From the NCBI GenBank assembly GCA_950295325.1, contig OX485803.1, forward strand, positions 69,951,554 to 70,015,553: DNA of 64,000 nucleotides, in the 5' to 3' direction. The DNA comes from Polytrichum commune. Lineage: Eukaryota > Streptophyta > Polytrichopsida > Polytrichales > Polytrichaceae. The translations under genes were made by a program, and so were the position numbers. The notes under the pieces were generated by a model. The model was given only the letters and a program-made list of their open reading frames with translations, was not told the origin of the DNA and searched no databases. Below are positions 5,067 through 38,442 of this stretch, one piece after another. The stretch's first letter is position 1. Each line of letters begins with the position of its first letter.

Positions 5067-6904
5067 GGCAAATTATTATTATGAAGGCAAGCATGACAGG
5101 CAACAATTTTCAATTGAGACTAAAAAAATGATATTTTTATGGTGGGGTTGTCAGACTGTGGGCCCTTGTCCTGACACCCCTTCCCTAAAAGTTCGTAAAT
5201 ATATGATGGGGTCATGGCTCAACAAGTGGGGCCCATGTCAAATGGCATGAGCTCTAGCCCCAACCCACAATTAACTTTTGGCTCTTTATATATCAACATA
5301 CTATACCTCCCTTGATGCCAACTTGCAGGGATGAACATATGTGCTTACTATTGTTAATATTTCTATTCATGTGTGGTCCTCACCCATGATACAATATAAT
5401 AAATAAACGGTTGTGAAATTTTGAAGTGATAGATGTTGTACGGTGATCCATTAGAACTTCAATACAAAGCTTCTCAAAAGATCCAAGGATTCATCTTCTT
5501 TGTTATGTCCAAACATGTTTGTGAGTTCAAAATTTAGCCAAAATTTTGGTCTATTGAAGTTGATATTACAAACTCATAGAAGTTTTGTGGTAGAGCAACA
5601 AATTCATTCCATTTACAAAAATGTTTCACCATTATATAAAAATATTTTGACACCTCACTATGTGATCATCAATGGTTTTGCAAAATCAAGATTGCACCTA
5701 TAGTCAAATCTCATAATGAGTAATGACAACAAATATGGAGATATTATGTTGAAGCTCGGTCTAATTTAAATACAAACCTCGCATCTCCTCACATGCATTG
5801 TCACTCCTTGATGCATTTCTATTTATTAATATTGGCTACACAACATGGCATGTGTGTGTTGTACTCCAAAATGGTCAAAGTCTTCATGAATCAGTTTGTC
5901 ACGTGAGGTGACATCGGGGGCTAAGTTACGTCAATTTAGGAGTAAATGGACTCCATTAGGAGTCCATGTGTGTTGGGATGAGTAACGGACTCCATTGGGA
6001 GTCCTAGTTAGTTGTTCATCCACTCCATGGATGAACTCCACATAGGATTGGGGTTGTATGGAGAGGAAGGCCTCTTGACTTGCCATTGTTGTCAAGTCAA
6101 GTCTTGTGAGTGTGTTTTGAGAGAGAGAGAGCTTGTTGTTGCTTTCTCATGGCTATGGTGTAGTAGATTATGAGTAAAGCCTTTGCATTCTTTCTCCACC
6201 ACTTGCACTCTTGGATTCTCCCTTCGTGGAGTGAGAGATAGCTTGACTCTTGTGTGTGAATTTTAGAGTTTCTTAAGCTTTGTAAGGAGACATTTTAGTT
6301 TCTTAAGCTTGGAGAGAGAAACTCTCATCTTGAAGAGGTGGTTGTTTAGCATTTTAGTTTGCTATTTTATTTTGCTAATTGATGTTGACAACGACACTCG
6401 ATCTGTTGTGTTTAACGATCTTAGTTTACACGACAAGTTGAACCAATTGGAAATGTTGGGCATGCCTACAAATTGTCCTTTGTGCCCCATCCAACCATAT
6501 TCAAAAGATGAGTTTCTCCTTCCAAAAAATATATAGCCATCCACATAACCTATACAATCTCATTCTTGAATGTGATATTAGGTGAAATATCCCCACATTG
6601 TAGATGATATAAAATCCATTGTTTTTCCACACATCTATGGTGACTCAGAGTTGTCCTCTTGCTGAGTCCTCATCTACAACCTCTTTTGTTGTCATAAATT
6701 GGGTTGAAATTTCCCTCCATCCATGCCAAATAACATGAAGCATGCCACCTTGGCACAACTTCTTAATATGAGGTAATGTGCCATCTAGCCCCGGTCATGT
6801 CATCTTGCAATAGGTTTGGATTGTGGCTTAAACCATCACCATTGCAACCATGTCTTGTGAACTACCTCAAAGTCTTATTCTTACAACTATTGAGGCCCAT
6901 CTAG
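5067..6904. other. Intergenic, no supported gene
   Basis: Two 18-base palindromic blocks (GGACTCCATTAGGAGTCC near 5949 and a close copy near 5990), a GA-rich run near 6120 and repeated TTTTAGTTTCTTAAGCTT-type text near 6270-6310 resemble the R/U5 part of an LTR. No LTR ends or target duplication could be identified. The short open frames look random. Confidence 0.35.
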
Positions 6905-7271
6905 CTACACTAATATAGTCCTATTAGTGTGAGTGAAACATTAGTGTGAAAAAAAATAGTGTGGGCCACACCAATTCTTTGGTCATGGTGGAAGTAACGT
7001 GGGTCCAAGACCCCATGTCTTCCCCTAAGTCTTCATGAAAATTTATGCCCAATATAATAAATATTAGTTATATTACTAAAGTAGCACAAAATCAAATAAC
7101 CATTCACATTTGTTTTACATAAAAACAATTGATGTGGCCCATGCTAATTTTCTACTATAAAATATAGCAAGGGTTGAAGATTAATGTGACCTAGACTAAT
7201 TCTAATTATGATGACTAGCGTGGGCTCTAGAAAGTTACAACAACACACACTAATAAGATTATTTAGTGTAG
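6905..7271. mobile_element. MITE with CACTA-type ends, copy 1 (367 bp)
   Basis: The left end CTACACTAATATAG and the right end (reverse complement CTACACTAAATAATC) are imperfect inverted repeats of about 31 bases, both continuing into TATTAGTGTG. The interior shares GGCCCATGCTAATTTTCTA with 57720-57868. A related element of almost the same length lies at 14657-15027. The target duplication is unclear. No coding capacity. Confidence 0.6.
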
Positions 7272-8400
7272 CATCTTCAACTTTCATCTAGTTTATGAAC
7301 AATTCATTCACCGTTATCGTTTGTCACCGACCCAATGCCCTATGGTTTGGGGTTGGATTTCAAGGTGGTGGGAGGTCTAGAGTAAGTGTTTATCATTTTA
7401 AACTTTAGAATGGTAGTTGAGTTGGCTACACTGATATTCATGGTAGGAATGGGGTAAGAACCAATTTGTACAATTTACATCCAATAGATGGAAGAGTTTT
7501 CCAAAATGTTTGTGAGCCATAATGAAGTAGTTTTGCATACAAATATTAGAGGCTTATTTTTTGCAAGTATTTTTCACATATGTGTGTGTGTGTACACTAT
7601 GCTATGTCTTAGCTATAAATTTCTATGTGTATTGTTTTTTTTGTCCATTGTAGCTAGGGGTATTAAATTGATGATGACCCACGCACTTAACATATGTTTT
7701 TTCGTGAAAGATTCAACCCCTAGGACAAATATGAGGTCTTTGATACTAATTCCAAGGTCAAATCTATCTTTGAGAACAAGTTCAAACTGAAGGGGGTTGG
7801 AACCAACTCACATGACTCCCACAAATCCTTAACCCGTAATTTTATAATTAATTTGAAGTCGTGGCAATTTAGAAACGGATCACATTGTGATGATGCAATT
7901 CAAATTGAAAGATGAAGCTAAAATTAAATTCAAAATGCTAAAGTGTTGAGACTGTTTGTCTCAGTTTAGGCCACGAGCACGAAATGCCAAAGCTAATATA
8001 AGCTTGAATAACTACCCTAAGTGCTAATGCATAGATGTTATTTGAGCAAGCAATGAAACTAATGATTCACTAGAAGGCAATGTAAAGACCTGGGCTGGAC
8101 GTCCTCTATGATATGAGGTATCCTTACTTTGTATTGTACACCCAACATATTTCGAAGTGCATTATATATTTGGACAAGACATTGTATTTCTCCAACCAAT
8201 TAGAGCCGCTGAAATCCATCCTTGGGCCTTTACGTTTGGTAATGCATTCGGAGGAGTGCATGGCCTATTACGTAAGCAATGAATAATAAGCTACTTTCTG
8301 GAAGTAACTTGTTCTTGGAACTCAGGGCTTGCCACGTGTGTTGGCACCTGGAACTTATGAGACAAACTTGTGACGGGAGATAGGACGCGGTTTTTGGATG
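7272..8400. other. Intergenic, nothing recognised
   Basis: AT-rich DNA with a short TG repeat near 7580. No open frame here has recognisable protein features. Confidence 0.5.
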
Positions 8401-11257
8401 AACGTCTTTCATCCGACTGTGGATGGCTTGTTGTGGAATCTTCGGCGGTCGACCTTCGACCTTTGGATAATTATTAGTTACCGCAAATTTTAGTCTTGTG
8501 GTTTCAATTCGTTTGCTGTCCGACGCTCCGCTTCGATCAAATCACTGCCACGGTATTCGATTTAGTGCATCCGTGTCATATGTGAGCGACAAGAAAATCA
8601 TTTACATCGTTGTATGGCACACTCTCGAGGACCGGAAACGCGGACAAAGCTTTGCATGTCGATTGCTGTCGATCTACAACGTCCTCGGCCCCCATTCTTG
8701 GTAAGACTTGGTCCTGGCCGTGATTTCTCAGGCTCTGATGATCTTTTGAACGGATTGCTCTGATGTGTGAGGCTGTCAAAACGAGAGGACGCAAAGGTTC
8801 TACAAACCAAACATGGGAGTGGTGGCCAGGGAGGGGAAGTGGTCAATCGGGTTTGATATTGTGGTTCTGTTTTCGAGGATTGGAGCTTCTTCACGTGGTA
8901 GGGTTGCTTGTTGTTCGCTCTCGATCCCGAGAGCCGAGCGTGTTTACTGGACATCATCATTATCATTTTGACGCCCTCCCCTCCGGAAATCGAGGGCCTC
9001 GCTAGGGAGAGGGTTATGCTATGGGGAAGTCGTCGTCTTCCTTAATCCCGAATCTCCATCTCAAATGCGAAATGGTTATGCTTAAGGGGCTCTGCGCTGC
9101 GGCGACATGGTGCCAGTGATTATACACTCTTTGATTTGTGTTTCCTTTCTGTAGAGTATTCTGTCCTTTACAGATTCAAAACTCGGGCAAACCATTCCGG
9201 AAGGACCGGAAATGAGTTTGGTGCGTTGGTTATGGACTAGGTGACTCGCGAGGGCAGGGCCGAGCGGGGCTACTGTACATAACCGTTTCGACGGCCTTTA
9301 CTCTGGACCCTCCGCTCATGACAACTGGCGGCCTAGGTTGAGGGTGCGTGAGGGAGAGGGTTATGCTACGGGGAAGTCAATCTCATCTTCAATGCCGGAG
9401 CTCAACCTTAAATGCCCAATGATTATGGTTGAAGTGTCTGCATTCGCTTGCGGGGTATGGTTCTAGGGTTTATAAACTCGTCAAATAGTGTTTCTTTTTT
9501 ACAGAGTACTTTTGTCCTTCATCATAAATTCAAACTCGTACCAACCATCTACTCGAGGACCAGGAAATTGCGCTTGACGTTACACTCATTGCTGTGAGAA
9601 AAGATCATTTAAGTCATCTTGCTTCTTGTAGAGTGCTGCAGGGGGAGTCTATCTCTCTCTGCCCTTAGTTTCTCCGGGTAGGTCACTTGCAAGTAGGGTC
9701 TTCAGAAGCCGTCATGCCGCCCAGGCTGTCCTGAATTATTAAAGGTCAACTTTACTTGTTTAATCTTCGTCTAATCAAGGTCTATGTATCTTGTTGTTCG
9801 CTGTCGAGTTTGGTCCCTTGGTTATGTTGAAGGGTTTGGCGTTCGCGTGCGGGGTTATGGTGCTAGCGGTCATAGACTCTTGAATTGTTTTTTCTGTCGC
9901 AGAGTACTTTTGTCTGTCTTCACAATTCTAAAGTCGGACAAGCCATCTACTTGAGGACCAGGGAATTGCACTCGATGTTGCACTCGTTGTAGTGGAAATG
10001 CCTCATTCGAGCCATTTTGCTTCGGGTAGAGTGCTGCAGAGGGGATCCAATCTCTCTGCTCTTAGTTTCTTGGGTAAGAACGCTCATGAGTAGGGTTTGC
10101 AAAGTCCTGTTAAAAAGCTCTCGCAGGAATTTGCAAGTTAATTCCGCCTGCTTGAGTACTTCTGCCCATGCTTCCATCGAGAAATGTATGTGCAAAAGCT
10201 CTTTATCTAAAAATCAAAATGTTTCTGAATTGCATTCCTTGTTTCAAGGCAGTCATCAAAACATGCACGCAACCCAGCTTATTTTAATCTAGTAGAAACA
10301 TGTGGCCGCTTCCAAACATCACTGACTATGATAGTATAAGTTCTCACCACTATAAGTTCGACAAAATCTTGTCCAGATCTTGGGGTGACGCCAAAAGCAA
10401 TTAATTCATACGTGTCTTCCACTTACTTCTTGAGGACCTGGATGCGTAGCGTTACTTCCAGTTTCTGAAATGAAAGTAGGCTGCTGCAAGTGATCTATTC
10501 TGACTAGTAGTATATATCCTCAGCGATGTTCACAATCCCTTACCAGTTGCCTACGGTGGAGTTTGTTGATTTGTATCACCTCTGATGAAGTGGGCTATGT
10601 TGTCTTGTGGCTTAAAATTGATGGGTGAGGTACATGTGTTATTTGCGTGCAACCTTGATTGCAACCTTGATATAACATCAACATTCTGTTGGTTGCTCAC
10701 AACTTTATCCAACTCAAATATGATGTGTAACTATGGTATCCTACAAAGTTAGCCCTTGACAGGAAAATATTGTTGTTTGTGAAAACAACTCACTGGTTTA
10801 CTCACCTCTGTTACAGGGTATCTAGATCCGGGAGTAAGTTGATAAAGTGAGGAAAAAGATGCAGCACTATCTAGTATCCTACTATTAGCAATCACAAGTA
10901 TTAGGTACCCTTGTGGGGTTGCTGTGAGATAGACTCTTGTCTTGTTCATGCTAATTGGTCTTGCATCTCAAGAAATAGATATGTCCAGTGACAAAGTAAT
11001 CATATGGTGGATTGAGTTGCTGGAGTCTGGCTATGCCTATTGGAATGAAGCTGATGATTATTAAGCAACATAAGATCATCAACAACCTTTGATTGCAGTG
11101 TCATAATTACTTTGGTTAATATGTGCCATGCACTCAAGATGTTGCTTGGAAATACAAGACTTGTTTCACACTCTCTACTTATCCTCTTGGCTTGTATTTC
11201 TGAGGAATTTGTTGTTGGCCTTGATCAGATCCTGAACGCCAATAAGAGAGCAGCATT
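8401..11257 (+). repeat. GC-richer upstream region of the kinase gene with tandem 350-400-bp repeats
   Basis: Blocks recur in the same order at about 9004-9250, 9350-9720 and 9815-10120: GAGAGGGTTATGCTA, a TGCGGGGT-like block, (T/C)AGAGTACTTTTGTC (9154, 9504, 9902), CGAGGACCAGGAAATTG and TAGAGTGCTGCAG. A partial copy with CGAGGACCGGAAACGCGGAC lies near 8625. The copies are diverged and carry stops in all frames, so they are more likely promoter or leader sequence than coding exons. One block (GAGAGGGTTATGCT) also appears alone near 16479. 5' untranslated exons of the kinase gene may lie here. Confidence 0.55.
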
Positions 11258-13332
11258 ATGCCTTCCTACTTATGCCGTGCTAATGAAGCAATGGAAAAGC
11301 TCATGGTGGTTGACAAGAAAATCAATGATATTCAGCTCAATAATAAACAGGTGGAGTTTTTACGGCATATTATTGAGGATACCATTCAGATAAAAGCACC
11401 AGCTGTTTCAAGTCAAGATGATCAAGTGAATCTGCGAGAGCTTTGTTTTGCAATTGAGCGTGCTGAGGTTCTTATGAGTTGTAGCAAGAACTTGCTACAA
11501 GGTGCTCTTCTGCAGACAGACCTCACTGAAGAAATCTCTACACTTGTTTCATTCTTCTTGAAGCGTGACACTGTGAAGTCATTTGACAAGGACCTGGATG
11601 AGAAATTGCAACATGATCTTATTGAGTTGCGGAAGAAATTGGAGGCGAGAACAAAGGCATCAAAAGGACAGGAAGGTGATCTTGCAGCCTACTTACTGGG
11701 AAGGTTATTTCAGGGTGACAGTAATTGTCGTAATCCAAAAATCCCGTCAAAGGAAAATCATTGGGAAGTAGAGACAAGCACACTGGGAAATGCTGGGCAC
11801 TGTCTGGGTAAAGGTACGTCTGGGTTTGTGTATGAGACGATGTGGCTGGGAGAGAGTTTTGCTAGAAAGTTTTTCCCAGGGACAAACAACCCTGCCTTTG
11901 AGAAAGAAGCACCTGCACTTGTAGACCTCCGGCATCTGAATGTTGTGCACACATTTTGCTGGTCTAAGGACAGACGGAGCTACTCGCTTGTGATTGAGAA
12001 TTTTGGTACTGATCTTCAGACATTCTTGCAAAGAAAGAAGGGGTCACTGGGAAGGAAGAAAGAGGAGGACAACTGTGAAGTGCCTTTTGGAAGTGAGAAA
12101 TGGCTGCTTGAAGCAGTTCGTATAATGCTGCAGATTGCTGCAGGCATGGAGTACTTGCATGAGAAGGGGGTGGCACACGGAGACCTGGAGCCAAATAATG
12201 TACTGGTTAAGGCTGTGAATCCTCAGAGGGAAGGCCATTTGCATGTGAAAGTGGTTGATTTTGGGCTATCAAGGACAAAGTTGTGGAGGTCAAGATATTC
12301 AGGTGAGAGGCAGGAAAGAGGCTTTGGAATACGATGGAAAGCACCAGAGCAGATATCTTGTGTCCATTTCTTGGAAAGTTCAGATACAGACACAGACTCA
12401 GAAGAAGAGGAAATGGCATCAAAGGATGATTCAAATCAAGAATTTGGGACATTAGCAGTTGCTGATGTTTACAGTTTTGCTAACATATGCTCATACATTC
12501 TGACTGGGGAAGTTCCGTTCCGAACTTCTCACACCCCGAAGGACTTGCAGGATGATATCAACTCTGGGAGGACACCAGACCTTCCCCTGCTGTGTCCTCT
12601 ACCCCTCAAGAATCTTCTACAGAGATGTTGGAATAAGAAAGCTGCTGACCGACCTTCCTTTAGTAAGATTTGTCAAGAACTGCGATTTCTCATCTCTCAT
12701 GGTGAGTTGATCCTTTTTCAATGTCATACATTGTTGTGTCTGCTTGTTGTGTTGGCAACCTTTGACAGAACAGTGAAATTAAGTACTGAATCTGTATCAA
12801 AACTTTTATTGCACAGAAGGATGCGATATAGTTCATTTTGTCTTGTTGATGACATTTCAGTATCTGTTATCAAGGGTGAAACAGCCCTCAAAAAAATCCA
12901 CCTATTGTGACATGGATGTGATGAATTGCATCTAGTCTAATATTACAAGCTTTCAGATGGTGATTGCAACAACAGGCTAGTCTCTTTGTGTGTTAATATG
13001 AAAGGTTTTTTGCAGAGTTGGCAGATTCCGAGAGTTCTAGGATGCAGGAGGCACTGACTGGCTCATGTTTGCTGCCTACAAAGCAATCAGCAGAAGATAT
13101 GGACTTGGAGTCTATGAAGTCGACGAAGAAGTCATTGGCATGTGAGTCTAGGGTCCAAGGCATTGAACAAACACTTGTGCCTACCTGGTATTTGGGGACT
13201 AAAGGCTGTCAACAGCGGTCTGTGCTGCCTCCTGTAGAGTTGGGTACCTCAAAGTGCTCTAGAAAGGTTGAAAGGTCAAAGGGTCAAACGCGCAGAAGGG
13301 CAAAGCGGCAAACAAGGCATACGAGTGAGTAA
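11258..13332 (+). CDS. Protein kinase with N-terminal helical (DUF1221-like) domain, two exons
   Basis: Exon 1 is 11258-12701 and exon 2 13016-13332; the intron 12702-13015 has GTGAGT and TTTTTTGCAG borders and keeps the frame, giving 586 residues. Residues 1-130 are helical and resemble the N-terminal domain of plant DUF1221 kinases. The kinase domain is about 180-480: glycine loop GKGTSGFV (184-191), Lys204 in FARKFF, Glu215/217, HGD at 307-309, Asn314, DFG at 334-336, APE at 362-364, and DVYSF near 403. The Lys expected two residues after the catalytic-loop Asp is Glu311, and HRD is HGD, so this is a non-RD kinase with possibly weak activity. An acidic Ser/Asp-rich loop (374-392) interrupts the C-lobe. 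Exon 2 adds a basic, low-complexity tail. A TAA lies just upstream in frame, so ATG 11258 is the first possible start; an upstream spliced exon is not excluded. Confidence 0.8.
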
Positions 13333-27529: not shown

Positions 27530-28154
27530 CACTACAACAAATTGGGTATTTTGTGACTAGGGAAATATGCCTGGGGATGACTGGTGACTACATGCAGTCA
27601 CATTTTGCCAGGCCTCGACCTTTGGGGGGTACGAAATTCAAAAATATGACTCGCAGTCATATTTTATTGTTGTATTCGGCAAATGTACTATATACAGCGT
27701 ATGGGAACAATGACTGCCTTTATAGGGAACGACGGGGAACGTGTCTGGTGGACGCCCAGTCATATGTGGCAGTCACATTCTGACTAGGACCATTTTTTTC
27801 CTTTTTTTGGACAACCCTTGATAATTCAGGCTGCCCTAGACGGGCCTCTTGTGTTTTTGCCCCATGACTCATTATCTAGTATTATGGTTTGGAGTATTTA
27901 TTTAATAATGACAAATTTTGGTCAAAATTAAGTACTTTGTGTGTTATAGTATGAATGGCAATGAAAATTGGGAATGGCCCATGTTTATTTATTGAATAAT
28001 TAATTGATTGATGTTTTAGGGAGTATAGGGGGGAAATTGGGGAGGAAATTTGAAATTTACTATTGCCAAGAGACTAATTGAACATGTATATAATTGAACT
28101 TAAATATATACCCACCTAAGTTTCATTTATACAACTTTTTGCTCGGACGGGAAG

Positions 28155-31100
28155 TCAATCACCGTCCGAGTCGCAATACTCGGAGTCATCTACCGATGCG
28201 TCGTCCGGTCCCTCTAGACATTCTAATGCCTTAGCAACCACTCCTGGCCCCACTTCCACTGCATCGCCCAATATGGGTGTCTTCGGTACGATATCATCAT
28301 ATAAGGCCGTCACTTGTAATCCGGGAAAATCATAAGTCCTACCTAGTGTTATGCATTGTACTTCATCCGTTCTTTGTTGTTTGGAGAATACCTGAACCCT
28401 TCTCGGTTCCTTGCGCAAAACAACTTCCCATCCACACTTCGTTACGTCGGGTGCAAAAAAAACTTGTTCGATGTGGAAAGGAAAGGCAAATGATTGTACT
28501 GAGTAAGGAATCAATCTGTCAAAGTTTACAATGGTGAAGCCATAGTCATCGCGCTTCATCGTGGCCCCATCTCCCTTAATGTTTGCGACGACCCAATTAC
28601 AATAGAGGACCACCTCGCAGCGGAGTTGGAGTACGTGGGTTGGGTGGAGGAAATCCTATGGCGCGCATCACTGCTTTTGGAAACCAAATGTGAAAATCTT
28701 CGTCGCGCAACTCCGCTGGGTACATTACCCGTGCCTTCCGCTTCTTGCGCCTGTATTTGTGCCGCTCACATTCCCACCGTGACATGTCATCCTCGTGTTT
28801 CCTGCATTTTGGATACAACCCAACATATCATTACCCGTGACTTGCTGAAATCACTAAGGGCAGTCATAATTGCATACAACAGTAGTCGTAGTGTGTCGCG
28901 ATAACTACAACGAAATGCATATTTTACGACTACATTTTATAATTATACTTAGTCATAAATCCCAAAATATGACTGAGTGTAGTCATAAATTTTGGTCACA
29001 AAAGATGCGTTTTGTTGTAGTTCGTATGGACTGGACTGTTGTTCTAAGAGAGGTGGTGCATTTAAGGTTCTTCCACTAAAATATGAACTCACCTCCTCTA
29101 CTCCTCCAGTGGTGCCGCATTGTTCACCACGAACTCATGTATCCATTGTCGAAGGTCGGATGGGAGATAACGCGCCCGCACGCCACCTTCGAGGATCTCA
29201 TCATACATTGATGGGTCTTCTTTGTCATCCCACACTCTTCGAGTGGTGACTGTATATTCTTGCATATACTCCGTACAAAATCCCAATGCCTCTACTATAG
29301 CGTAGCCTTCAACCATGCAACCCTCTGGCCGAGTACGGTTTCGGACGTACCCTTTTAGAGTCTTCAGGTACCTCTCTATAGGGTACATCCAACGTGTATG
29401 TACGGGTCCACAAATTTCCACTTCCTCCACGAGATGCAGGACCAAATGGCTCATGATGTCAAAAAATGATGGCGGGAATTCTTTTTCCAACATGCATAGT
29501 GCTATGGCCGCTTCACACCTCATCTCCTATATTGTTGTGGGATCAATGGACTTAGCACACACCCTCCTGAATACACGGCTCAACATTATTATTGATGTCC
29601 GCACTTCCTTTTCCATTGTGCAGCGCACACATAGTGCCAACACTTGCTGCATGAGGACATGGTAGTCATGGGATTTCAGGCCTTTTATTTGCCCATCCAC
29701 GTTTACGCGCTTCTTCAACTATCCCACATAGTGGGTGGGGGTTCGCAATGCACGCACTTGCTCCACAAAGACTTCACGCTTTTCTTTCGTCATAACGTAC
29801 GAGGACCGAGGTAGAATCACGTTACCGGATTTTGTTCCTGCTACGGGCCAAAGATGCTTGCGTATACCCGCCTCCTTCATGTCCAGACGAACTCCAAGTG
29901 TGTCCTTCTCTCCAAATATGGTTTTTATCACATTCTTAGCGATGTTTTTCTCACAGTGCATAACATCCAATGTGTGTCGAATTAGAAGATCCTGCACAAT
30001 AAATCGAGCCAGTGAGAAATTTGCCGGAGCGAATCACAATATCACTACGTGCAATCATGTGACTGTACATGACTACATCTACTCACATAATACTCATAAA
30101 TAATATTACTATATGCAATAATGTGACTACGTCCACTCCCTTAATTCTCATAATAACATACACGTACTTTCCAGTATGGAAGGTCATATAGACATGTCCT
30201 CCTCTTCACTCCGTGATCGTGTACGGGGTCTGTCGTTTGCCCAGTTTGGTTTCTGTAGTGTTTTTTCGTGCACTCTTCTCGCTTGTTCGCATATCGCAAT
30301 TGCTCTCGACCACTCATCCTTCTTGGCGGTGGTCTCATCTCGGGCTGCCCATCAAAATTGGACCTTTGTCGTCTCCATTGGTGGGTCATTGGCAGTTGTC
30401 GTCTATGCCCAAGGTAAACATTTTTTTTCAACGCTTTGGAACGCCATGTTGCCACGTTGGGGCAAGCCCTATGTCCTTTTGTTACTTGCCCGGAAATCAA
30501 ACCGTACGTCGGGAAGTCATTCACCTTCCACAAAAGCATGCCATGTAGCTTAAATGTTTTCTCTTTGGAGTTTCCGTGCGATCCGTCCAGGCAGTCGACC
30601 CCTTTTCAAAGCTCTTGGAGCTCCTCAATCAACGGTGCCATGTACACATCCACGTTCCTGTCCCTCACACTCTTTTTTCCTGGTATGATTAGCGCAAGCA
30701 TCATGAAGAAGTTTTTGGTTACTAACCAAGGGGGGAGATTGTAGTTCAGCATGACCACGGGCCAAGTAGAGTGGCTGAGACTTTGGTTCCTAAATGGATT
30801 TACGCCATCCAGTGCAAGGCCAAGCCTAACGTTCCGTTCATCTTCCGCAAACCACGGCCACCTATTATTTACGTGGTCCCAAGCCTTCGAGTCCACCACG
30901 GACCTCATCACCTTGTCCTTACTTTTCCCACCTACATGCCACTTCATTAGCTCCGCGATCCGTGTGCAGTTGTACATCCTTCGCAAACGAGGAATCAAAG
31001 GAAAATGTCTCAAAACTTTGACTGGAATTGTTTTGGAGTTCTCTACAAAGCGCGATTTATGGCATGTTGGGCACTCCGTTGCATCCTCCAATTCTTTCCG

Positions 31101-31600
31101 AAACAAACAACATCCATCTCTACACGCATGTATTGAGTTGTAGGACAACCCCAACTTCATCAATAAGCCTTTCGTCTCGTTAAATGATTTCGGTAGTGTG
31201 TTGTCCTTGGGTAAAATTGTCTCCTTCAACAACTTCAACAACTCATTTACAAAGTTGTTTGGTACGGCGAAGGTGGTGCAACACAATAGTATTAAGAGTG
31301 TCGATGTGAGACGGTTCGAGGGGCTTCCCTTATAAAGTGGAGTTCCAGCTTCGCATAAGAGATTCTGGTGGTCTACCCCACTGGGGTCCTCATTGTTCAT
31401 GGTACTCCCTCTTGTTTCTATGGGGTCATTCATTTCTTCCCTTTCCCCATCGCTACCTTCAGTGTCGTTCATTGTGAAACCATCCTCCCTTTCATCGTCT
31501 TCAACCAATGCATCCCCGAGTCCCTTATGTATGGTGGCTTCGGTTTCGTGTCCGTCAAAATTGAGGCCATCGTACTTGCCGAAGCACCCTGCCACCATAC
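28155..31600 (-). pseudogene. CACTA transposase (Tnp2 plus DUF4218 and DUF4216 domains)
   Basis: The reading starts near ATG 31598. Residues CTTFAVPNNFVNELLKLLKE, a Cys-rich CPTCHKSRF, WHVGGKSKDKVMRSVVDSKA and LALDGVNPF form the Tnp2 core, continued by LLWKVNDFPTYGLISGQVTK and GHRRQLP. An intron (29992-30167, GTACGT...GTGCAG) joins PYWK to DLLIRHTLDVMHCEKN. DUF4218 follows at 29098-29523 (LEKEFPPSFFDIMSHLVLHL, GPVHTRWMYPIERYLKTLKG), and DUF4216 at 28155-28820. In-frame stops lie at 30606-30608 (TGA where relatives have Trp), just below 29719 and at 29524-29526; a 120-bp MITE sits at 28903-29022. This is the catalytic protein of CACTA elements; this copy is dead. Confidence 0.85.
28903..29022. 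mobile_element. 120-bp MITE nested between transposase exons
   Basis: AACTACAACGAAATGCAT at the left end and the reverse complement AACTACAACAAAACGCAT at the right end form inverted repeats that continue for about 10 more bases. AGTCATA motifs fill the interior, as in the host CACTA element, so it may be a deletion derivative of that family. Confidence 0.5.
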
Positions 31601-32234
31601 GTAGAACCTCAACTTCTCCATCTTGTCCATCGTTTGTGTTAGGGTATGTCTGGCTTCTTTACCCACTCCGGGGTGCATGGGAGAACAAGTCAATCGGGCT
31701 GTACTCGTCCTGCAGAGAGTGATAAATTTGTGCGCACGTTATATATTTTCGCTTGGCAGAAACATACGATAAGGACTCATAACAATGACAATCATAGAAC
31801 ATGGATTGTATATAACATGGACATATTATATACAAATGTATGAAAACGACAAGGAGCAATCACAAGTAGTCTTGTATCACATGGATGAGTCATAAATTTG
31901 TGACTTCTGTGTTACGGGATTCTGTCATAAAATGCGCGTTGTATCTAACGAGAGGCAATAATAAAACGCCGAATATAACATAAACGTGTAACATGCGTGG
32001 GGGGGATGTCCACCGATTATGAAGACTGGAGTGTGTAAGATAAAAGAAATCTCATGCAACACACAAATACAAACAATGGATGTGGAAAAATGGTCATATT
32101 CCACATACACATGTATACCGTGGTCAGGACATGTATACAAAATTTTATCAAAACAAAACATGACTTAGTGTAGTCATATTAGTGAACACATGGCGCACTT
32201 TAGTCATTCCTAATATGGACTAATGGGTGTCAGC

Positions 32235-32758
32235 CTACAATGCAGTGTGCGGGTTCAAAGAGTAGTGTGCATACAACTCTTCTCCGACTAAAATGTCTTT
32301 TATGGCTATGGTGATTACATACCCCATTCCTGTTTGTTCCAGGGTTTTGGCAACATGCGAAATTCCCACACCACATTTCCTATTTCTTTGCGTCCTATGT
32401 AACTATTTATGAAGCCAGCAACATTCCCCTTCATTACATCTCCATCGATGTACAAGTCCGGCTCAATTTGCATCACATATGACTTCACTCGAGGTTGTGT
32501 CTTCTTCAAAGCTCTATATTCTCCCAAGATGTATTGTGGTCCTACAAATGGAAGCAGTTCCTCTCCCTCTTTGGCGGGTAGAAGTGCAAAGAGACCCCAA
32601 CCCATGAATGGGAAGTTGGACACCCTTACTTCCCATTCTCTATTCTAGTATGAAAACTTTATAAGTTTTAGGATGGGCCCGTCACACCACTGTCCGTCAT
32701 ACACGTTTGACCCCCATGTCTGCAAGGCTCGTACTCTTGCAGACGTTGTGTTTGGCAT
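32235..32758 (-). pseudogene. SET-domain protein carried by the CACTA element
   Basis: From ATG 32758 the frame reads a short N-terminus (VYDGQWCDGPILKL), a TAG near 32647, then FPFMGWGLFALLPAKEGEEL (the G-x-G-x-F/A opening of SET domains), LYIDGDVMKGNVAGFINSYI (the IDG...GN.A.FIN block), WEFRMLPKPWNKQEWG and, after a one-base frameshift at about 32316, IAIKDILVGEELYAHYS, the GEEL..Y end of the domain. SET domains methylate lysines with S-adenosylmethionine. The usual N-H-S after the GN block is N-S-Y here, while the closing Tyr is kept. No pre-SET or post-SET Cys cluster is visible. It lies between the divergent transposase and TNPA-position genes, well inside the element. The domain identity is from motif order only. 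Confidence 0.65.
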
Positions 32759-33682
32759 GGACTGTGAAGGCGTTTCGTGAAGCAGCTGCTGCTGGAGTTA
32801 CTTCACCTAGTCATATTTTGAGTCATATGACTTCACCTAGTCATATTCTGAGTCATATAAATACACTAAACTTCACAGTCATATATTGGCCGGTTTTGGT
32901 ATGTTTACGCATTTTTCATGGATCCACAGTTGCTCCTTTCACAGGCCGCAGATTTAGAGCGGCCCCTGACGCAGTTGGAGGTGGAAACCGAGCTAGCGAC
33001 ACCTGGGAAATTAGGACGGGGCCGGTCGTCATCGTCCAGAGGGCCACTCCCAAATGCAAGAGCGGGAGATAGAGGCCTCGTAGTTACGCGGAGCGAGTTG
33101 CACGACTTCCAAGATAGCATGAAGGGGGAGTTGGAGGATGTGAAGGCTATGGTGAAGGAGCTGCTGCTGGAGGTGCAGAAGCGAACGACGGCGCCCATGG
33201 AACCGCCAGCCACGGCGGAAGCGGGAGTCGACATGATCCAAGTAACCGCCGAAAAGGTTGCGTCTGTATACCCTCTGGTACTCGCTTCAAGTACATGTAT
33301 GGAACACCTTTGCTTCAGCAATGTTGTATGTCATGTAGAAAGATCATTTACTAATACACGCGTCATGTGGATCATTAGAACATGTAGGCAACTGGAAAGT
33401 CGGCGGAATCCGGGCATACTGAGTCGACTGCGGCATCGGAGCCCCTGCGTAACACCCTAGCGGATATGGGTAGCCAACCCGACATTCGAAAGAAGAAACC
33501 CATAGCCAAGAAGAGGAAGGGCGAAGCGGAGAAGCTATTGGTGGAACGCGATGCACGGTCTACCCGGCGTGCAATGGTTCGACAAAAAGAGGTTGGCCTT
33601 CATGCCATATGTTCATCATACTTATCGGATAGTTATATTTACGTGCAAGCTTCATGTCTTAGATTTGGCCTCAACATTGGAC

Positions 33683-33832
33683 AGTCATATGACTATGTCA
33701 CATAATATGACTATAGGCAGTCATATAATATGACTCACTGCAGTCATATAATATGATTCACTGCAGTCATAAAACATGACAAGTAGTAGTCATATAACAT
33801 GACATGAGGTTATCACAAGCAGTCATGCATGA
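33683..33832. repeat. AGTCATA/TATGACT motif array, intron 2 of the TNPA-position gene
   Basis: About ten close copies of CAGTCATATAATATGACT-type text lie in 150 bases, in both orientations. The same motif is dense in the terminal 700 bases of the CACTA element and is its probable transposase-binding motif. Confidence 0.65.
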
Positions 33833-35539
33833 CAGGGCCGACTCGGGAGGTGCACCTTTCATTAAAACCTAGAATCACGTGCGTTCACTGCATACTCTTA
33901 AAACCCCCTATATACAAGTTATTTTTTGTAAAATGAAGTAATATACATACAATTGCAACAATAAATATACAAGTGACAATATGTATACACAAAAAAACAT
34001 CCAATCATATATAGTCATTAATATAAGTATACAAATATACTTTTGAACAATAATCAACCCCTATAATATGTTTAACAAAATATCCTAGCTTTCATCAGCA
34101 AAGTCGTTGAAAACTTTTTCATCTCCCGGATGTAGCTCATAAACATTTGATTCACTAATATATGTCATTGTAGCCAATGCAATTATTGTCTCTAAGTCTA
34201 CCATCAAATGATCAGTAAGATCATATGTCCACTTGTTGTTAGCCCCTTTTTTATACCAACATAAACCAATCTCCATGTTTGATGGACGGTCCATCAAGTC
34301 AATTGGATCCCTATACTCCACCCAACGATTACAAAACTTCCTCCGCATCCAATATGAAAACTTATGATATGTGTATAGTAACAGTACCATACAAATACAA
34401 TTATTGTATATTTTTTAAAGGCCTTCCATATATGTACGTAACTATAAATTATAACATGTATACCATATGTATACGTAATACGGCAAGGTCCAAATCAATA
34501 CCCCTCTTGTGCACTCACGTATACTCGTACATGTTTAGTACAGTACACCCCCCGAGAGGGCCGAGTCATAATCTAACGCTAAAGTGTTACTGGGTCGTGA
34601 CGCTCCAGGTTATGACGTTTGGAGCGAGTCAGGAACAACCCGTGGAATTGTAGGAGGACGAGGACCATGAGGAGCCTGCGGCGAAGAGGGCGGCAAAACG
34701 GCCACATAAAGAAGGCAGTCCACAGAAGAAGAAGAAGAAGGCTGCCAATGCTCCGAAGATCCACCCGTTAGCCGCGAAGGTCCCCTCGGTAAGAGTGTCG
34801 GACTCCGGGTGTAGGAAAATTATAGTGTTGAATGTCGTAGGACTTCTTTGCGATATCAGTCCTCTGCACGATAGGAAAGAGTGGGGCCCGGATCTAGTAA
34901 TCTACCACGCTAAGGACCTGAATGTAAAAATAAAAAAAAGAACTGATTACGACAAATTTTTGTCGATGTTGTGCTTTAATTTTGATGTCGGGATATGGTC
35001 CCCCGTAGAGCAGACCGTACTAGAGGTTGTAGCTGCATTTCTTGCAGTGGGAACAACAGCTCAATGAAGTTTTTTGTGGGGGAGGTCCTATCTCCTCCAG
35101 AACCCAATAAGAGACCTCTGTAATCTATTTAGTATGATTTTAGACCCCACGCACGGCTCAACACGATGTCTCCAATTTGATTGGGATGCAACGGCGATGG
35201 CGCGTTCCCCCCCTCAAATGTCCTAAACTTTCCGCAATGGAATTTCCTAAACCTCAACGATGACTTCCTCCGCGGAATCTGCGGGCCATTCGAAGCATTG
35301 GCCCGCAACCAAACCGACATTGAATATTGTTTGGCGTATCTGATCAAAGAGGTTCATCTAGGGTCGGTACCTGCAAACCTGGTAGGTTCATCGACACAGG
35401 TAAGCTTCTCTTGGATATTTTTTGTTTATATTTGGTTCTCACTCCAATCGCAAACAAGAAAAATGTTGATAACATATGTCCACATAGGTATGTCACTCCA
35501 CGAAGTAATATGAGGATCCTAGACGAATATGTTACTTAT

Positions 35540-35720
35540 TGTAGTCATACAATATGACTTTGTCCAGTCATATGACTATGGTCAATCATAGGAAATATGA
35601 CTATGTCTAGTCATATGACTATGATCAGTCACAGGTCGTAATTATATTACTCATTGTTGTCATATCTAATGACTACGGTGTATTATATGAGTATCACCTG
35701 TCATATTATACAATCATAGC
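35540..35720. repeat. AGTCATA/TATGACT motif array, intron 4 of the TNPA-position gene
   Basis: Repeated TAGTCATACAATATGACT and AGTCATATGACTATG units fill the middle of the clean 410-bp intron between exons 4 and 5. Confidence 0.65.
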
Positions 35721-36190
35721 CTACTGTGAAGTTATATATTGAGTATTGAAGCAGTTGTAACTCCATGCGGATTTTTTTTGTTTGTTGACAATTACGTTTT
35801 CTGTTGCAGACACATGTAGAGGAGGTCACTCCCGTATTGTCGGAGACGGCTAATGCATTGGTGAAGGACGCACCCTTGCCGTTGGCCACGGGGTCCAATG
35901 TCAAATTGTTTGACTTGGACAAGGAGAACAAGGCCAAGGCGAACGTAGTGGCGCAAGGCATCATTGTGAGCCTTGCAAAAGGCTCACTCCACGGGCGACT
36001 CATTGAGGAGGGCAACGTATCAGTTTGCGTGTCCTCAATCGAGCCGGGAACAAAATCCGTGTTGCTGTTCGAGGGCAACAACGACGACGATCCTCCGATG
36101 TTGCATGTGGACGATGCACTGAAGTCCATCACCAAGTGGCCATTGGAAGCCCTAAAGGCTATCCTGCCGGAACCTCAACAAGCCACTTAG

Positions 36191-36766
36191 AATTCGGTAG
36201 TTTACGCATTTAGGGAATATGTGGGAAAGATGAACACATTTGGATATGCTTGGAGACATGGTGTCGCGTAGCTCATGGCATGGTGATTCTAGAATGCTCA
36301 AGATCACCTCAATCAGAGGTGTGAGCTAAGAGTTATGGCAATTTGAGTGGGGCGCTGTCCCAGGACAGCGCCCTGGTACAGCAGTGCCTGGGAGTGATTC
36401 CCGGGACTGCCAAGCTTCAAACAGGCATAACTTCCTCAATACTTGCCCGAATGGGGCAAGTGAGGAGTCCATCGGCATCTACGTGAAGTGTAGATGAAGA
36501 AAGAGTGGTTGGTTGTTAGCATCAGACATCATACAAGGAAGTTATGATGGTCTGAAGCTGCTGGGGGCTTCTAGGCCCAGCGGCTAAGGGAAAGTGTCCA
36601 CTTGGCCCCAACTCTTGGTAGAGAGACAAGAGGTTCCTTGACGGTGGGGTAGGGGCCCCGTGTGGAGTCCTAGAGGCTTATATGGGTGAGGTGGTGTGGC
36701 CTCACCCACCCGAGGCCGAACGGCACGGCCTCCATTGGCATTGGCCTAATGTGAGGCCATAGTTGC
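36191..36766. other. GC-rich non-coding part of the CACTA element
   Basis: It contains a strong palindrome (GGGCGCTGTCCCAGGACAGCGCCC near 36351-36374) and no open frame. A related GC-rich piece follows the nested element at 37413-37680. Origin unknown. Confidence 0.4.
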
Positions 36767-37412
36767 CTATCGTAGACATGCTACTAACCGTGCAGCACCA
36801 CTTACTGTGCATATCACAATACTCCACCATGCCACTTACCGTGTACTTATAATCTCGGCCGTCAAATTATATCACATGCAATCTCAACCGTCTGATGTCT
36901 CTCAAACTCAATCATGACCGCGCCAATGACCTAAAACATCACTGTCAACTCACACTCATCATGGAGTTTCCTTCAGTCGAATCACATAGCAAGGTGTAGA
37001 TGTAGCAATTTGATGAAGATGAAAAGAGCAGACCTTGCCATGGCCAAAAAAGAAGCAAAAATTTCAACAACAACTTGAGAAGAAAATGGCTATACAAGTC
37101 AAAAGGACAATATCAAAACCTCATCAATTTCCTATGCCTCCAAAGAAGAGGGCAACATTTGTAGCTCCTTTAGTGAAACCTAACATGCACGGTTAGTGAA
37201 TGGCACATTGATCACACATTGATACATATAGTTGTGAACTTGATTGTAGAAAGGTTACAACTTTTCAAATACAATTGTCATTTCATTTTACCACAATACT
37301 CTCATCTCATTTACTAATTACAAATTTTAAAAAAATTAAAAAAGATTTAACCCACCTTGTGGAAAACCATTTGAAACCCAAATATGCACGGTTAGTAGCA
37401 TGTCTACGATAG
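36767..37412. mobile_element. 646-bp non-autonomous DNA transposon nested in the CACTA element
   Basis: The ends are perfect 28-bp inverted repeats beginning CTATCGTAGACATGCTACTA and continuing ACCGTGCA. TTACCGTG/CACGGTTAGT motifs recur just inside. The interior is AT-rich and non-coding. The flanks CATAGTTGC and TATGGTTCG are only partly alike, so the target duplication and superfamily are uncertain. Confidence 0.7.
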
Positions 37413-37679
37413 TATGGTTCGGGTTGTTGTAGTGTTGCTCCGGCAACGCGATGATCAACATAAGATTGGACTTCTATGGATGGAAGTCCACATCTAAGGA
37501 TTGGTTACCGATTAAAGGGGTGAGTCCCGAAAGCAAAGTAGGAGGGTTGGGTCCCCTCCTATGAACTATAAGGTCCGGGGTGAGAGGAGCTAACCCCGGA
37601 TGGCGGTATGCGAATGGTTAGCGCTCGTAACCTTTGCTAGGAAATAAAAATTGGCAAGATGGTCAAGGAGGGCTAGCAA

Positions 37680-38442
37680 GGGTTGCGACACATGGACTAC
37701 ATAATATCATTCAAGTTATTTATATTTATCTGCTCAATTTGTGTGCTCAATTTCTTACTTGGCTCAGTCATGTAACGCATGACTTGAATGTGTCGTCATT
37801 GCTTGGAATGTGCCCAGAAATGTGACTGACATTCAGAATTGCATGTAATATGAATCTAATTCAATACAGTTACAACAACGCACAAAGAACTACGCAATGT
37901 GACTCTCCATCTACGCGAATATCACTCCATCATATCACATTGTGCATCACATATTACTAAGAATATGACTATAGAACGTCATATAATAATGTCATCCCCG
38001 TAGAAAATGCGACTAATACCCCAAAAAACATGCCTACAAGTAGTAAAAAACTAGCAGTCACATTCCACATGGCCTGCCACGTCGGCAAAATTATGACACA
38101 TGCAAGTCATATTACACGTCAGCAGAAAACATGACTACATGGAGTCACATGCCACGTCGGATTGGTATTTTTTCTGCCCGGGCAGGTCAAAAAAGGGCAC
38201 AGACTCCAAGGCTAGTCAAGGTATGCCCCACGTGCTGTGGGGATCGTAGAATCTGTCATTTTATACGCCCCCACAATCGTATATATTCATATGACTCATG
38301 TTCGAAGCGACTCGTCAGTAATGACTAGACCCAGTCACCGCGCGCGTCATCTTCATTCGGAGCCTCGTCAGTCATATTCTGGGATTTTATGACTTAAGGC
38401 AGTCATAAATTGCAGTCACAAAATACCCAATCTGTTGTAGTG
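37680..38442. repeat. Right subterminal region of the CACTA element
   Basis: Many AGTCAT, TATGACT and GTCACAT motifs in both orientations, ending in the terminal repeat at 38414-38442. No coding. Confidence 0.6.

Follow-up and report, generated by a model that had tools for sequence, protein, structure and literature searches.

Plant transposons are repressed by histone and DNA methylation, and to our knowledge few element-encoded counter-measures to silencing are known in plants. VANC, from the VANDAL elements of Arabidopsis, is not known to be a SET protein. As an accessory gene of a plant transposon it counters host silencing, an effect demonstrated there (PMC10398659, available part), whereas for the family described here anti-silencing is a proposal only. 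Fungal transposons, EnSpm elements among them, encode TET/JBP dioxygenases that edit chromatin or DNA marks (PMC12730594, available part), with 5-methylcytosine as substrate, fungi as hosts and an enzyme fold different from the one considered here. Among oomycete transposons, SET genes have precedents in Helentrons, HarbingerS and MuDR elements. The Phytophthora HarbingerS and MuDR elements are DNA transposons with a SET histone methyltransferase gene, but they have other transposases and belong to another host kingdom, and the available part of PMC12730594 does not describe their SET gene as an alternative exon of a transposase gene. Phytophthora proto-Helentrons and Helentrons, which are rolling-circle elements, bear a separate, intronless, Clr4-like SET frame of ~153 aa, reported for P. 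infestans and, in a supplementary legend, for more Phytophthora copies (PMC4067079, available part). En/Spm produces two proteins through alternatively spliced transcripts and has a large transposase frame within intron 1 (PMC2613891, available part); the term “SET domain” is absent from the main text of that paper, and no description of a SET gene in CACTA elements was found in the literature searched. Like maize En/Spm, Tam1 and soybean Tgmt*, the family analyzed here has CACTA ends, a 3-bp target duplication, a Tnp2/TnpD transposase and subterminal repeats. Unlike En/Spm, it has a SET exon in intron 1 of Tnp2, and its TNPA-position gene is divergent, on the other strand.

The window, a stretch of 64,000 nt from Polytrichum commune (assembly GCA_950295325.1, contig OX485803.1, 69,951,554–70,015,553, forward strand), contains at 27530–38442 a broken, internally deleted family member of the subfamily A type; full-length copies are ~15.7 kb. 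The matching 29-bp CACTA ends recognized in an earlier sequence-only reading are located at 27530–27558 (+ strand, CACTACAACAAATTGGGTATTTTGTGACT, exact match) and 38414–38442 (− strand, one mismatch), and dinucleotide shuffling of the window (100 replicates) gave no terminus match. Genome-wide, the terminus pattern (≤2 mismatches) was matched 57 times in forward and 58 times in reverse orientation, and the reversed control pattern not once. CACTA terminal inverted repeats are present in elements of subfamilies A and B; those of C and D were not found in the pieces examined, outside which the ends may fall. Target duplications of 3 bp flank copies A1 (TGA/TGA), A3 (TCA/TCA) and A4 (TGT/TGT), a short copy (CAA/CAA) and the B element (AGA/AGA), while the flanking triplets differ in A2 (CGG/TAA), and the unmatched flanks of the window copy (ACA/GGT) leave no visible target duplication. 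In copy A3, Pfam identified Transposase_21 over a 565-aa frame (E = 5.9e-73), DUF4218 (E = 1e-37) and, just below the cut-off, DUF4216 (E = 2.3e-6). The motif TATGACT, counted on both strands, occurs 63 times across the whole of A3, ends included, against a mean of 2.3 (maximum 9) in 200 local mononucleotide shuffles.

The association of Tnp2, SET and an FCP1/HAD-like block in one CACTA family, put forward in the sequence-only reading, proved real and no one-off insertion. Among the matches listed, SET and HAD blocks are both present in 25 of 34 terminus-delimited copies, and SET in 26 of the 27 delimited copies that have a listed Tnp2; copies were delimited from the 100 terminus matches listed, of 115, by pairing adjacent ends provided that these lay <60 kb apart. 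SET also extends beyond subfamily A to three more diverged subfamilies (B, C and D), with at least 120 SET places in all. Positions were compared for 120 of 150 SET rows, after removal of the weakest rows and of additional fragments from a place already represented, for 115 of 116 Tnp2 rows and, again without second fragments, for 48 of 55 HAD rows. Within the matches listed, SET lies ≤5 kb from Tnp2 in 76 of 115 Tnp2 rows, in all 76 upstream on the same strand and never on the opposite one, and the identities of SET and Tnp2 to the window copy correlate closely (Pearson 0.965, n = 76). The other 39 of the 115 listed Tnp2 rows, from the same genome, have no listed SET match, suggesting that SET is dispensable for transposition in those families. 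In a Tnp2 tree of 11 rows, the SET-less n18, n19, n21 and n22 group with D and three SET gain or loss changes are needed; shuffled SET labels do as well in 149 of 500 trials. An old gain followed by losses fits this tree, which has long branches and 11 rows only. No viral relatives were found in IMG/VR.

Intron 1 of Tnp2, the transposase gene, harbours the SET block as a terminal exon on the Tnp2 strand, and the first exon, which carries CPCxxC and is transposase-associated-like, is in phase with both SET and Tnp2 (phase-0 signals). An N-terminal fusion of SET to Tnp2 was ruled out because the SET exon terminates in its own stop codon, near-identical in position across the four subfamilies. 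Among the 47 intact SET exons, 45 are preceded by TAG at the acceptor position, and exon 1 could be located for 45, with GT at the expected donor site in 44 (GTGAGT or GTAAGT in 36). Exon 1 is open from ATG to donor in 40 of these 45 and carries a stop or frameshift in four (L032, L046, L081 and A1); together with a GT donor it lies ≤500 nt upstream of SET in 44 of 47. On the Tnp2 side, in-frame CAG acceptor candidates, among which the acceptors were picked by eye, occur in A1–A4, B and C and in the SET-less n18, n19 and n21; the sole one listed for subfamily D sits 31 codons inside the Tnp2 frame, and n22 has none among those listed. The same exon 1 stands immediately 5′ of Tnp2 in the SET-less L018 and L021, and is fused with tnp2 in a single frame in L020. 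This fused frame reaches 30.1 bits against Transpos_assoc (PF13963; cut-off 27.7), below which five short exons score 19.9–21.7 bits; exon 1 of A also matches U-box (23.1 bits, cut-off 21.4).

Pfam SET was matched by one open-frame copy from each of the four subfamilies (E = 8.4e-10, 2.7e-10, 3e-10 and 8.5e-7; 39.5, 41, 40.9 and 29.8 bits), all above the cut-off of 22.4, and comparison of the SET profile with PDB gave a best E of 1.2e-5, the matches being an H3-lysine-4 methyltransferase and ASH1L. G-W-G, N141, N147, G188-E189-L191 and Y195 are invariant in 21 of 21 aligned sequences. The canonical NHS motif is mostly NSS, its histidine being replaced, which makes catalysis uncertain, and no cysteine-rich pre- or post-SET part was seen by eye in the exon. 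The frame is intact in 47 and broken in 21 of 68 copies, a sample drawn mostly from the 120 that favours complete matches, so that 47/68 is not a family-wide rate. Median dN/dS is 0.44 (A), 0.23 (B) and 0.48 (C), and pN/pS in disjoint closest pairs is 0.44, 0.44 and 0.50, respectively (binomial p ~1e-4 each); between subfamilies, dS is often saturated (162 of 342 A–B pairs, 141 of 144 A–C pairs). These ratios indicate purifying selection on SET in all three subfamilies for which they were computed. A recent capture of SET from a host gene found no support among the 16 host SET pieces sampled, which include no close donor (best SET-profile score 17.3 bits); a donor outside this sample is conceivable.

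The minus strand of the window copy carries a DUF4216-like transposase-gene exon at 28155–28655 (Pfam E = 1.6e-5, 25.8 bits, below the cut-off of 30.6), a DUF4218 transposase-gene exon at 29098–29526 (E = 1.4e-35), the start of the DUF4218-bearing exon at 29719–30033 (matched by eye to a 314-aa frame of full copies, with no Pfam match of its own) and the N-terminal part of the Tnp2 transposase at 30606–31658 (Transposase_21, E = 2.7e-37, profile positions 1–102 of 213). For the Tnp2 exon, a putative phase-0 acceptor (ctctctgcag followed by GACGAG) was placed by eye at 31709–31712 (−), the position that it has in full copies (A1–A4 compared). The SET terminal exon survives as a remnant at 32235–32779 (−; Pfam SET E = 2.9e-4) whose first ~63 nt are gone; it ends, by eye, in a stop codon at 32235–32237 and contains an in-frame stop preceding NREWEV and a frameshift near 32315. 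Blastn against A4 locates a deletion junction at 32779–32800, where ~6.4 kb (A4 reverse coordinates 5735 to 12143) were lost, and with them the first exon shared by SET and Tnp2, the divergent intergenic region and the 5′ exons of the TNPA-position gene. On the plus strand, this gene retains a middle exon at 32870–33460 (MDPQLLLSQAADLERP; the same exon in A2–A4), an FCP1/NIF/HAD-like block at 34654–35067 (Pfam NIF E = 0.011) that continues in a different frame at 35181–35513, broken in the window and a single frame in A1, and a C-terminal exon at 35789–36190 that is common to subfamily B (A4 vs B, E = 6e-13). An N-terminal exon of this gene common to A and B, alike by eye, is not claimed (BLASTP E = 0.12). 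Comparison with A4 also revealed two insertions, at approximately 33845–34553 and 36262–37686, the latter containing a 28-bp perfect inverted repeat (36767–36794/37385–37412). The HMM check leaves the SET (21.6 bits, just below 22.4) and NIF (15.9 bits, cut-off 21.8) matches of the window copy below cut-off, whereas open-frame relatives exceed it for SET in one copy of each subfamily and for NIF in A1, and the earlier statement that all genes are broken holds for the window copy only.

Based on these data, we propose, with a probability of roughly 0.6, a CACTA (En/Spm) lineage in which SET serves as an alternative last exon in Tnp2 intron 1 and yields a CPC–SET protein. One promoter would give two mRNAs, exon 1–Tnp2, encoding the transposase, and exon 1–SET, whose product of ~265 aa would join the transposase's CPCxxC N-terminal domain to SET. 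Through the shared N-terminal part, the SET protein would reach either the transposase complex or copies of the element itself, where it would methylate a histone (or another protein), countering silencing or tuning element expression. The CPC–SET protein would probably be a self-directed chromatin modifier. The most specific version, in which an alternatively spliced histone methyltransferase with the transposase N-terminal domain lets the element place an anti-silencing or self-limiting chromatin mark on copies of itself, is put forward tentatively, as a possibility short of an expectation.

Truncated transposase isoforms compete with or modify the full-length enzyme in other transposons, and the SET protein might likewise regulate transposition rather than chromatin, its fold being non-catalytic or methylating the transposase or the TNPA-position protein. 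The common exon 1 with a terminal stop is the architecture of a truncated transposase, and both the replaced NHS histidine and the existence of sister families without SET agree with such a role; a mere competitor, however, needs no SET-fold core, and that core is invariant in all 21 sequences aligned, so we regard this explanation as doubtful though worth keeping in view. It is less probable still that SET forms an independent gene nested in Tnp2 intron 1, with a promoter and a start codon that belong to it alone, the phase match of exon 1 being coincidental. Such a match arises by chance in about one third of introns, the joining of exon 1 to SET rests on splice signals read from sequence, and in-frame ATGs lie 7–42 codons into the SET exon of A (first two at codons 24 and 29), B (15 and 42) and C (7 and 11), making a start inside the exon possible. 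Yet the position of the first ATG varies among the four subfamilies and in D the ATGs come only at codons 75 and 81, the TAG directly 5′ of the open frame stops read-through from upstream, and exon 1 with its donor is almost always close by. Passive gene capture (transduplication), in which SET would have no role, had been allowed for in the sequence-only reading; CACTA elements do capture genomic sequence (PMC13317346, available part), and the window copy and 21 of the 68 are broken. We consider it very improbable: intact frames in 47 of 68 copies and constraint even among the closest copies contradict it, as do the spread over four subfamilies and the lack of a close donor among the host pieces sampled.

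The HAD block, on the strand opposite to SET and part of the TNPA-position gene, was described earlier as having a CTD-phosphatase-like fold. An active phosphatase on RNA polymerase II would be consistent with a NIF match above the cut-off in A1 (E = 2.7e-6, 27.6 bits; A3, with a shorter frame, stays below it at E = 0.0065 and 16.6 bits), with homology to an FCP1-like gene of the host (E = 5e-12) and with a pooled pN/pS of 0.314 over six copies. In all six copies examined, however, motif I is VLNVVG, as against VLDVDG and VLDVNG in two host genes; its first, nucleophilic aspartate is lost, so a working phosphatase is unlikely and action on the polymerase scarcely credible. A HAD match lies ≤20 kb away on the other strand for 32 of the 42 SET copies of ≥75% identity and for none of the 78 below 75%, where a much diverged block could escape the window-derived query, and five frames of the subfamily B TNPA-position gene gave no NIF match. 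SET and HAD are not one module, and a functional pair was ruled out because SET occurs in four subfamilies and HAD was found only beside subfamily-A type SET. The block is real and best explained as something that subfamily A added to its TNPA-position protein; if functional, it would be a non-catalytic binding module.

A CACTA lineage that has retained a SET exon under selection, across four or more diverged subfamilies and with copies that are nearly identical, makes it possible to test directly whether a transposon can write histone marks on itself. If the CPC–SET reading is true, the alternative last exon shows a transposon re-aiming an enzyme via a part that it already owned, and a self-addressed chromatin writer would be incorporated in the transposase gene; a mobile element of P. 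commune may edit chromatin to its own advantage.

In the window (positions 69951554–70015553 of contig C1, in an assembly of 408 Mb and 64 contigs) the CACTA element lies exactly where the sequence-only reading had placed it, at 27530–38442, with 29-bp ends (27530–27558 and 38414–38442) that match with one mismatch; an equivalent match occurred in none of 100 window shuffles. Pfam searches and reading frames placed exons for DUF4216, DUF4218 and Tnp2 in its interior on the minus strand, together with a SET frame; the plus strand holds a divergent TNPA-position gene that matches NIF/FCP1 weakly. Alignment with a full-length copy, A4, at 87–94% identity across the main pieces, showed the window copy to be derived by deletion. 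Relative to A4, ~6.4 kb is absent between 32779 and 32800, a stretch that held exon 1 of SET/Tnp2, the 5′ exons of the TNPA-position gene and the intergenic region from which the two genes diverge. Two insertions are present at about 33845–34553 and 36262–37686. The latter, perhaps a small nested transposon, contains a 28-bp perfect inverted repeat (36767–36794 and 37385–37412). The window SET frame carries one stop and one frameshift, and the flanking triplets do not match each other. Between the DUF4218 and DUF4216 exons lies a 120-bp inverted-repeat unit (28903–29022) with CACTA-like ends and 55-nt arms that are 78% complementary; because A4 aligns straight through it, the unit is older than the split of the two copies.

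The sequence-only reading had called for a search for other elements with these ends. Allowing ≤2 mismatches across the whole assembly, 57 forward and 58 reverse matches were found, and none with the reversed pattern as control. Pairing of neighbouring ends from 100 of the 115 matches delimited 34 elements: 25 hold both SET and the FCP1/NIF-like HAD block, one SET only, five HAD only and three neither. Fifteen of the 25 measure 15.2–15.9 kb. Four of the five HAD-only copies (7.0–7.5 kb) have kept both ends and the HAD block, with Tnp2 and SET not among the listed matches; one of these (C3:45035758–45043358) contains long frames of repeated residues and has a CAA/CAA target duplication. Like that short copy, A1, A3 and A4 are flanked by 3-bp target duplications; A2, the fourth full copy read, is not. 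The motif TATGACT occurs 63 times in A3 versus 2.3 in shuffles, at the ends, inside the element and ahead of exon 1, and is a candidate site for element-encoded proteins.

The SET gene extends beyond the family of the window element, which enlarges the original observation. With the window SET frame as query, at least 150 pieces scored and 120 were entered as separate places. Many of these have identities to the window copy near 93%, 67%, 55% or 50%, and the rest fall between or under these values; the four groups were named A (which includes the window copy), B, C and D. We examined 68 copies (60 fetched pieces, seven from elements and the window), a selection that leaned to complete matches; the full-length frame is intact in 47 of them (18 in A, 19 in B, 8 in C and 2 in D). 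The proposed SET profile search upheld the fold: one copy each from A–D scored 39.5, 41, 40.9 and 29.8 bits against the Pfam cut-off of 22.4. PDB structures of H3-lysine-4-specific, ASH1L, 2A (MLL) and EZH2 methyltransferases were matched by a 21-copy profile, the best at E 1.2e-5. None of the 21 aligned copies varies in the cofactor GxG, the two asparagines or the GE-L...Y end; the histidine of the NHS motif is substituted, mostly by serine. Certain active SET/PR proteins likewise have no NHS histidine, so the element protein may or may not be an active methyltransferase. Three B copies (L045, L046 and L011, on C6 and C4) encode SET proteins 99.5–100% identical on two chromosomes, suggesting recent transposition. 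A complete B element (C4:50099544–50121715) spans 22,172 bp, with an AGA/AGA target duplication and CACTACTACAAAACACG ends. By eye, a 2086-aa open frame near the D copy (L015/L017) and one of 1250 aa near the C copy (L013) resemble LTR retrotransposon polyproteins.

A TAG stands in acceptor position directly before the SET frame in 45 of the 47 intact copies, and in the copies inspected from the four subfamilies the frame stops a few codons past the last SET motif. The first ATG within the SET exon has no common place (codon 24/29 in A, 15/42 in B, 7/11 in C and 75/81 in D). Upstream, also in 45 of 47, lies exon 1, with the motif YxCPCxxC...TIRxHLRxxxRD; of these 45, 44 have GT where a phase-0 donor is expected, and 40 pass a test for an open ATG-to-donor frame, the five failures comprising three stops, one frameshift and one copy with just a missense change in the tested motif. 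The Tnp2 exon follows SET on the same strand, with in-frame CAG acceptor candidates in A, B and C, less clear in D. In two SET-less pieces (L018 and L021) the same exon 1 is followed directly by Tnp2, and in a third (L020) the exon 1 domain and tnp2 share one frame, with Transpos_assoc above cut-off; in SET-less L019 and L022 exon 1 did not turn up in a motif search. Exon 1 thus belongs to the transposase, and SET sits as a terminal exon within the first intron of that gene. SET lies within 5 kb in 76 of 115 Tnp2 rows, upstream and on the same strand in all 76, and the identities of SET and Tnp2 to the window copy correlate (Pearson 0.965, Spearman 0.90, n=76), as expected from joint descent.

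Median SET dN/dS for pairs with dS >0.05 was 0.44 within A (95 of 153 pairs), 0.23 within B (134 of 171) and 0.48 within C (15 of 28), with 0.28 for one D pair; between subfamilies, medians were 0.15–0.31 for finite-dS pairs, many pairs being saturated. Disjoint closest pairs, which count shared ancestry once, gave pN/pS of 0.44 in A (9 pairs), 0.44 in B (9) and 0.50 in C (4), each departing from neutrality at p about 1e-4. Restricting these counts to intact copies excludes stops, but such a filter would not on its own reduce the number of missense changes. Constraint is seen on exon 1 as well (pooled pN/pS 0.20–0.35 within A, B and C), although this exon also serves the transposase. In a small Tnp2 tree (11 rows, with long branches for C and L020), A joins B (support 82/86) and four SET-less rows (n18, n19, n21 and n22) group with D (95/96); clustering of SET labels was not clearly above chance (149 of 500 shuffles as low). 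An old gain with later losses would fit this small tree. Among 16 host SET pieces the highest score with the SET profile was 17.3 bits, so the capture would be old or from a gene outside these 16.

The observation made in the sequence-only reading is confirmed and enlarged, and its interpretation was half right. SET is a conserved part of the element, unusually arranged; the HAD block is a subfamily addition without its nucleophile. The suggested NIF/FCP1 search passed the cut-off in A1 but missed it in A3 and the window copy. The block is related to a host FCP1-like gene (E 5e-12) and is constrained (pooled pN/pS 0.314, six copies). It was seen with subfamily A only; five frames of the B TNPA-position gene have no NIF match, although the C-terminal exon is common to A and B. 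In HAD enzymes the first aspartate of motif I is the nucleophile. Motif I reads VLNVVG in all six HAD-block copies and VLDVDG and VLDVNG in two host genes; because the first aspartate is gone, catalysis is unlikely. The host FCP1-like genes form a tandem pair (L023 785–1795 and 2266–3156, C2:43148600–43152000) with 37% identity to the HAD query, one with each of the two host motifs.

SET genes have been reported in Phytophthora HarbingerS and MuDR elements (PMC12730594) and Helentrons (PMC4067079), and TET/JBP genes in fungal EnSpm (PMC12730594). Our search of open-access literature found no plant CACTA element with SET among the titles and abstract openings listed, and the terms ‘SET domain’ and ‘methyltransferase’ are absent from the main text of a 2026 review of plant gene capture (PMC13317346). 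A study of CACTA transposase introns reported chiefly losses, one clade having gained its first intron (PMC4158355). In En/Spm, alternatively spliced transcripts yield two proteins, and intron 1 contains the transposase frame (PMC2613891). The moss elements would similarly make two proteins by alternative splicing.

The sequences show the anatomy and the constraint. Based on these, we propose that exon 1 is spliced alternatively to Tnp2 or to SET, and that the common N-terminal domain would guide SET to element DNA or to the transposase. The main rival is that the SET protein regulates the transposase. Under the proposed mechanism of a guided SET protein, the benefit to the element would most likely be relief from, or control of, silencing.
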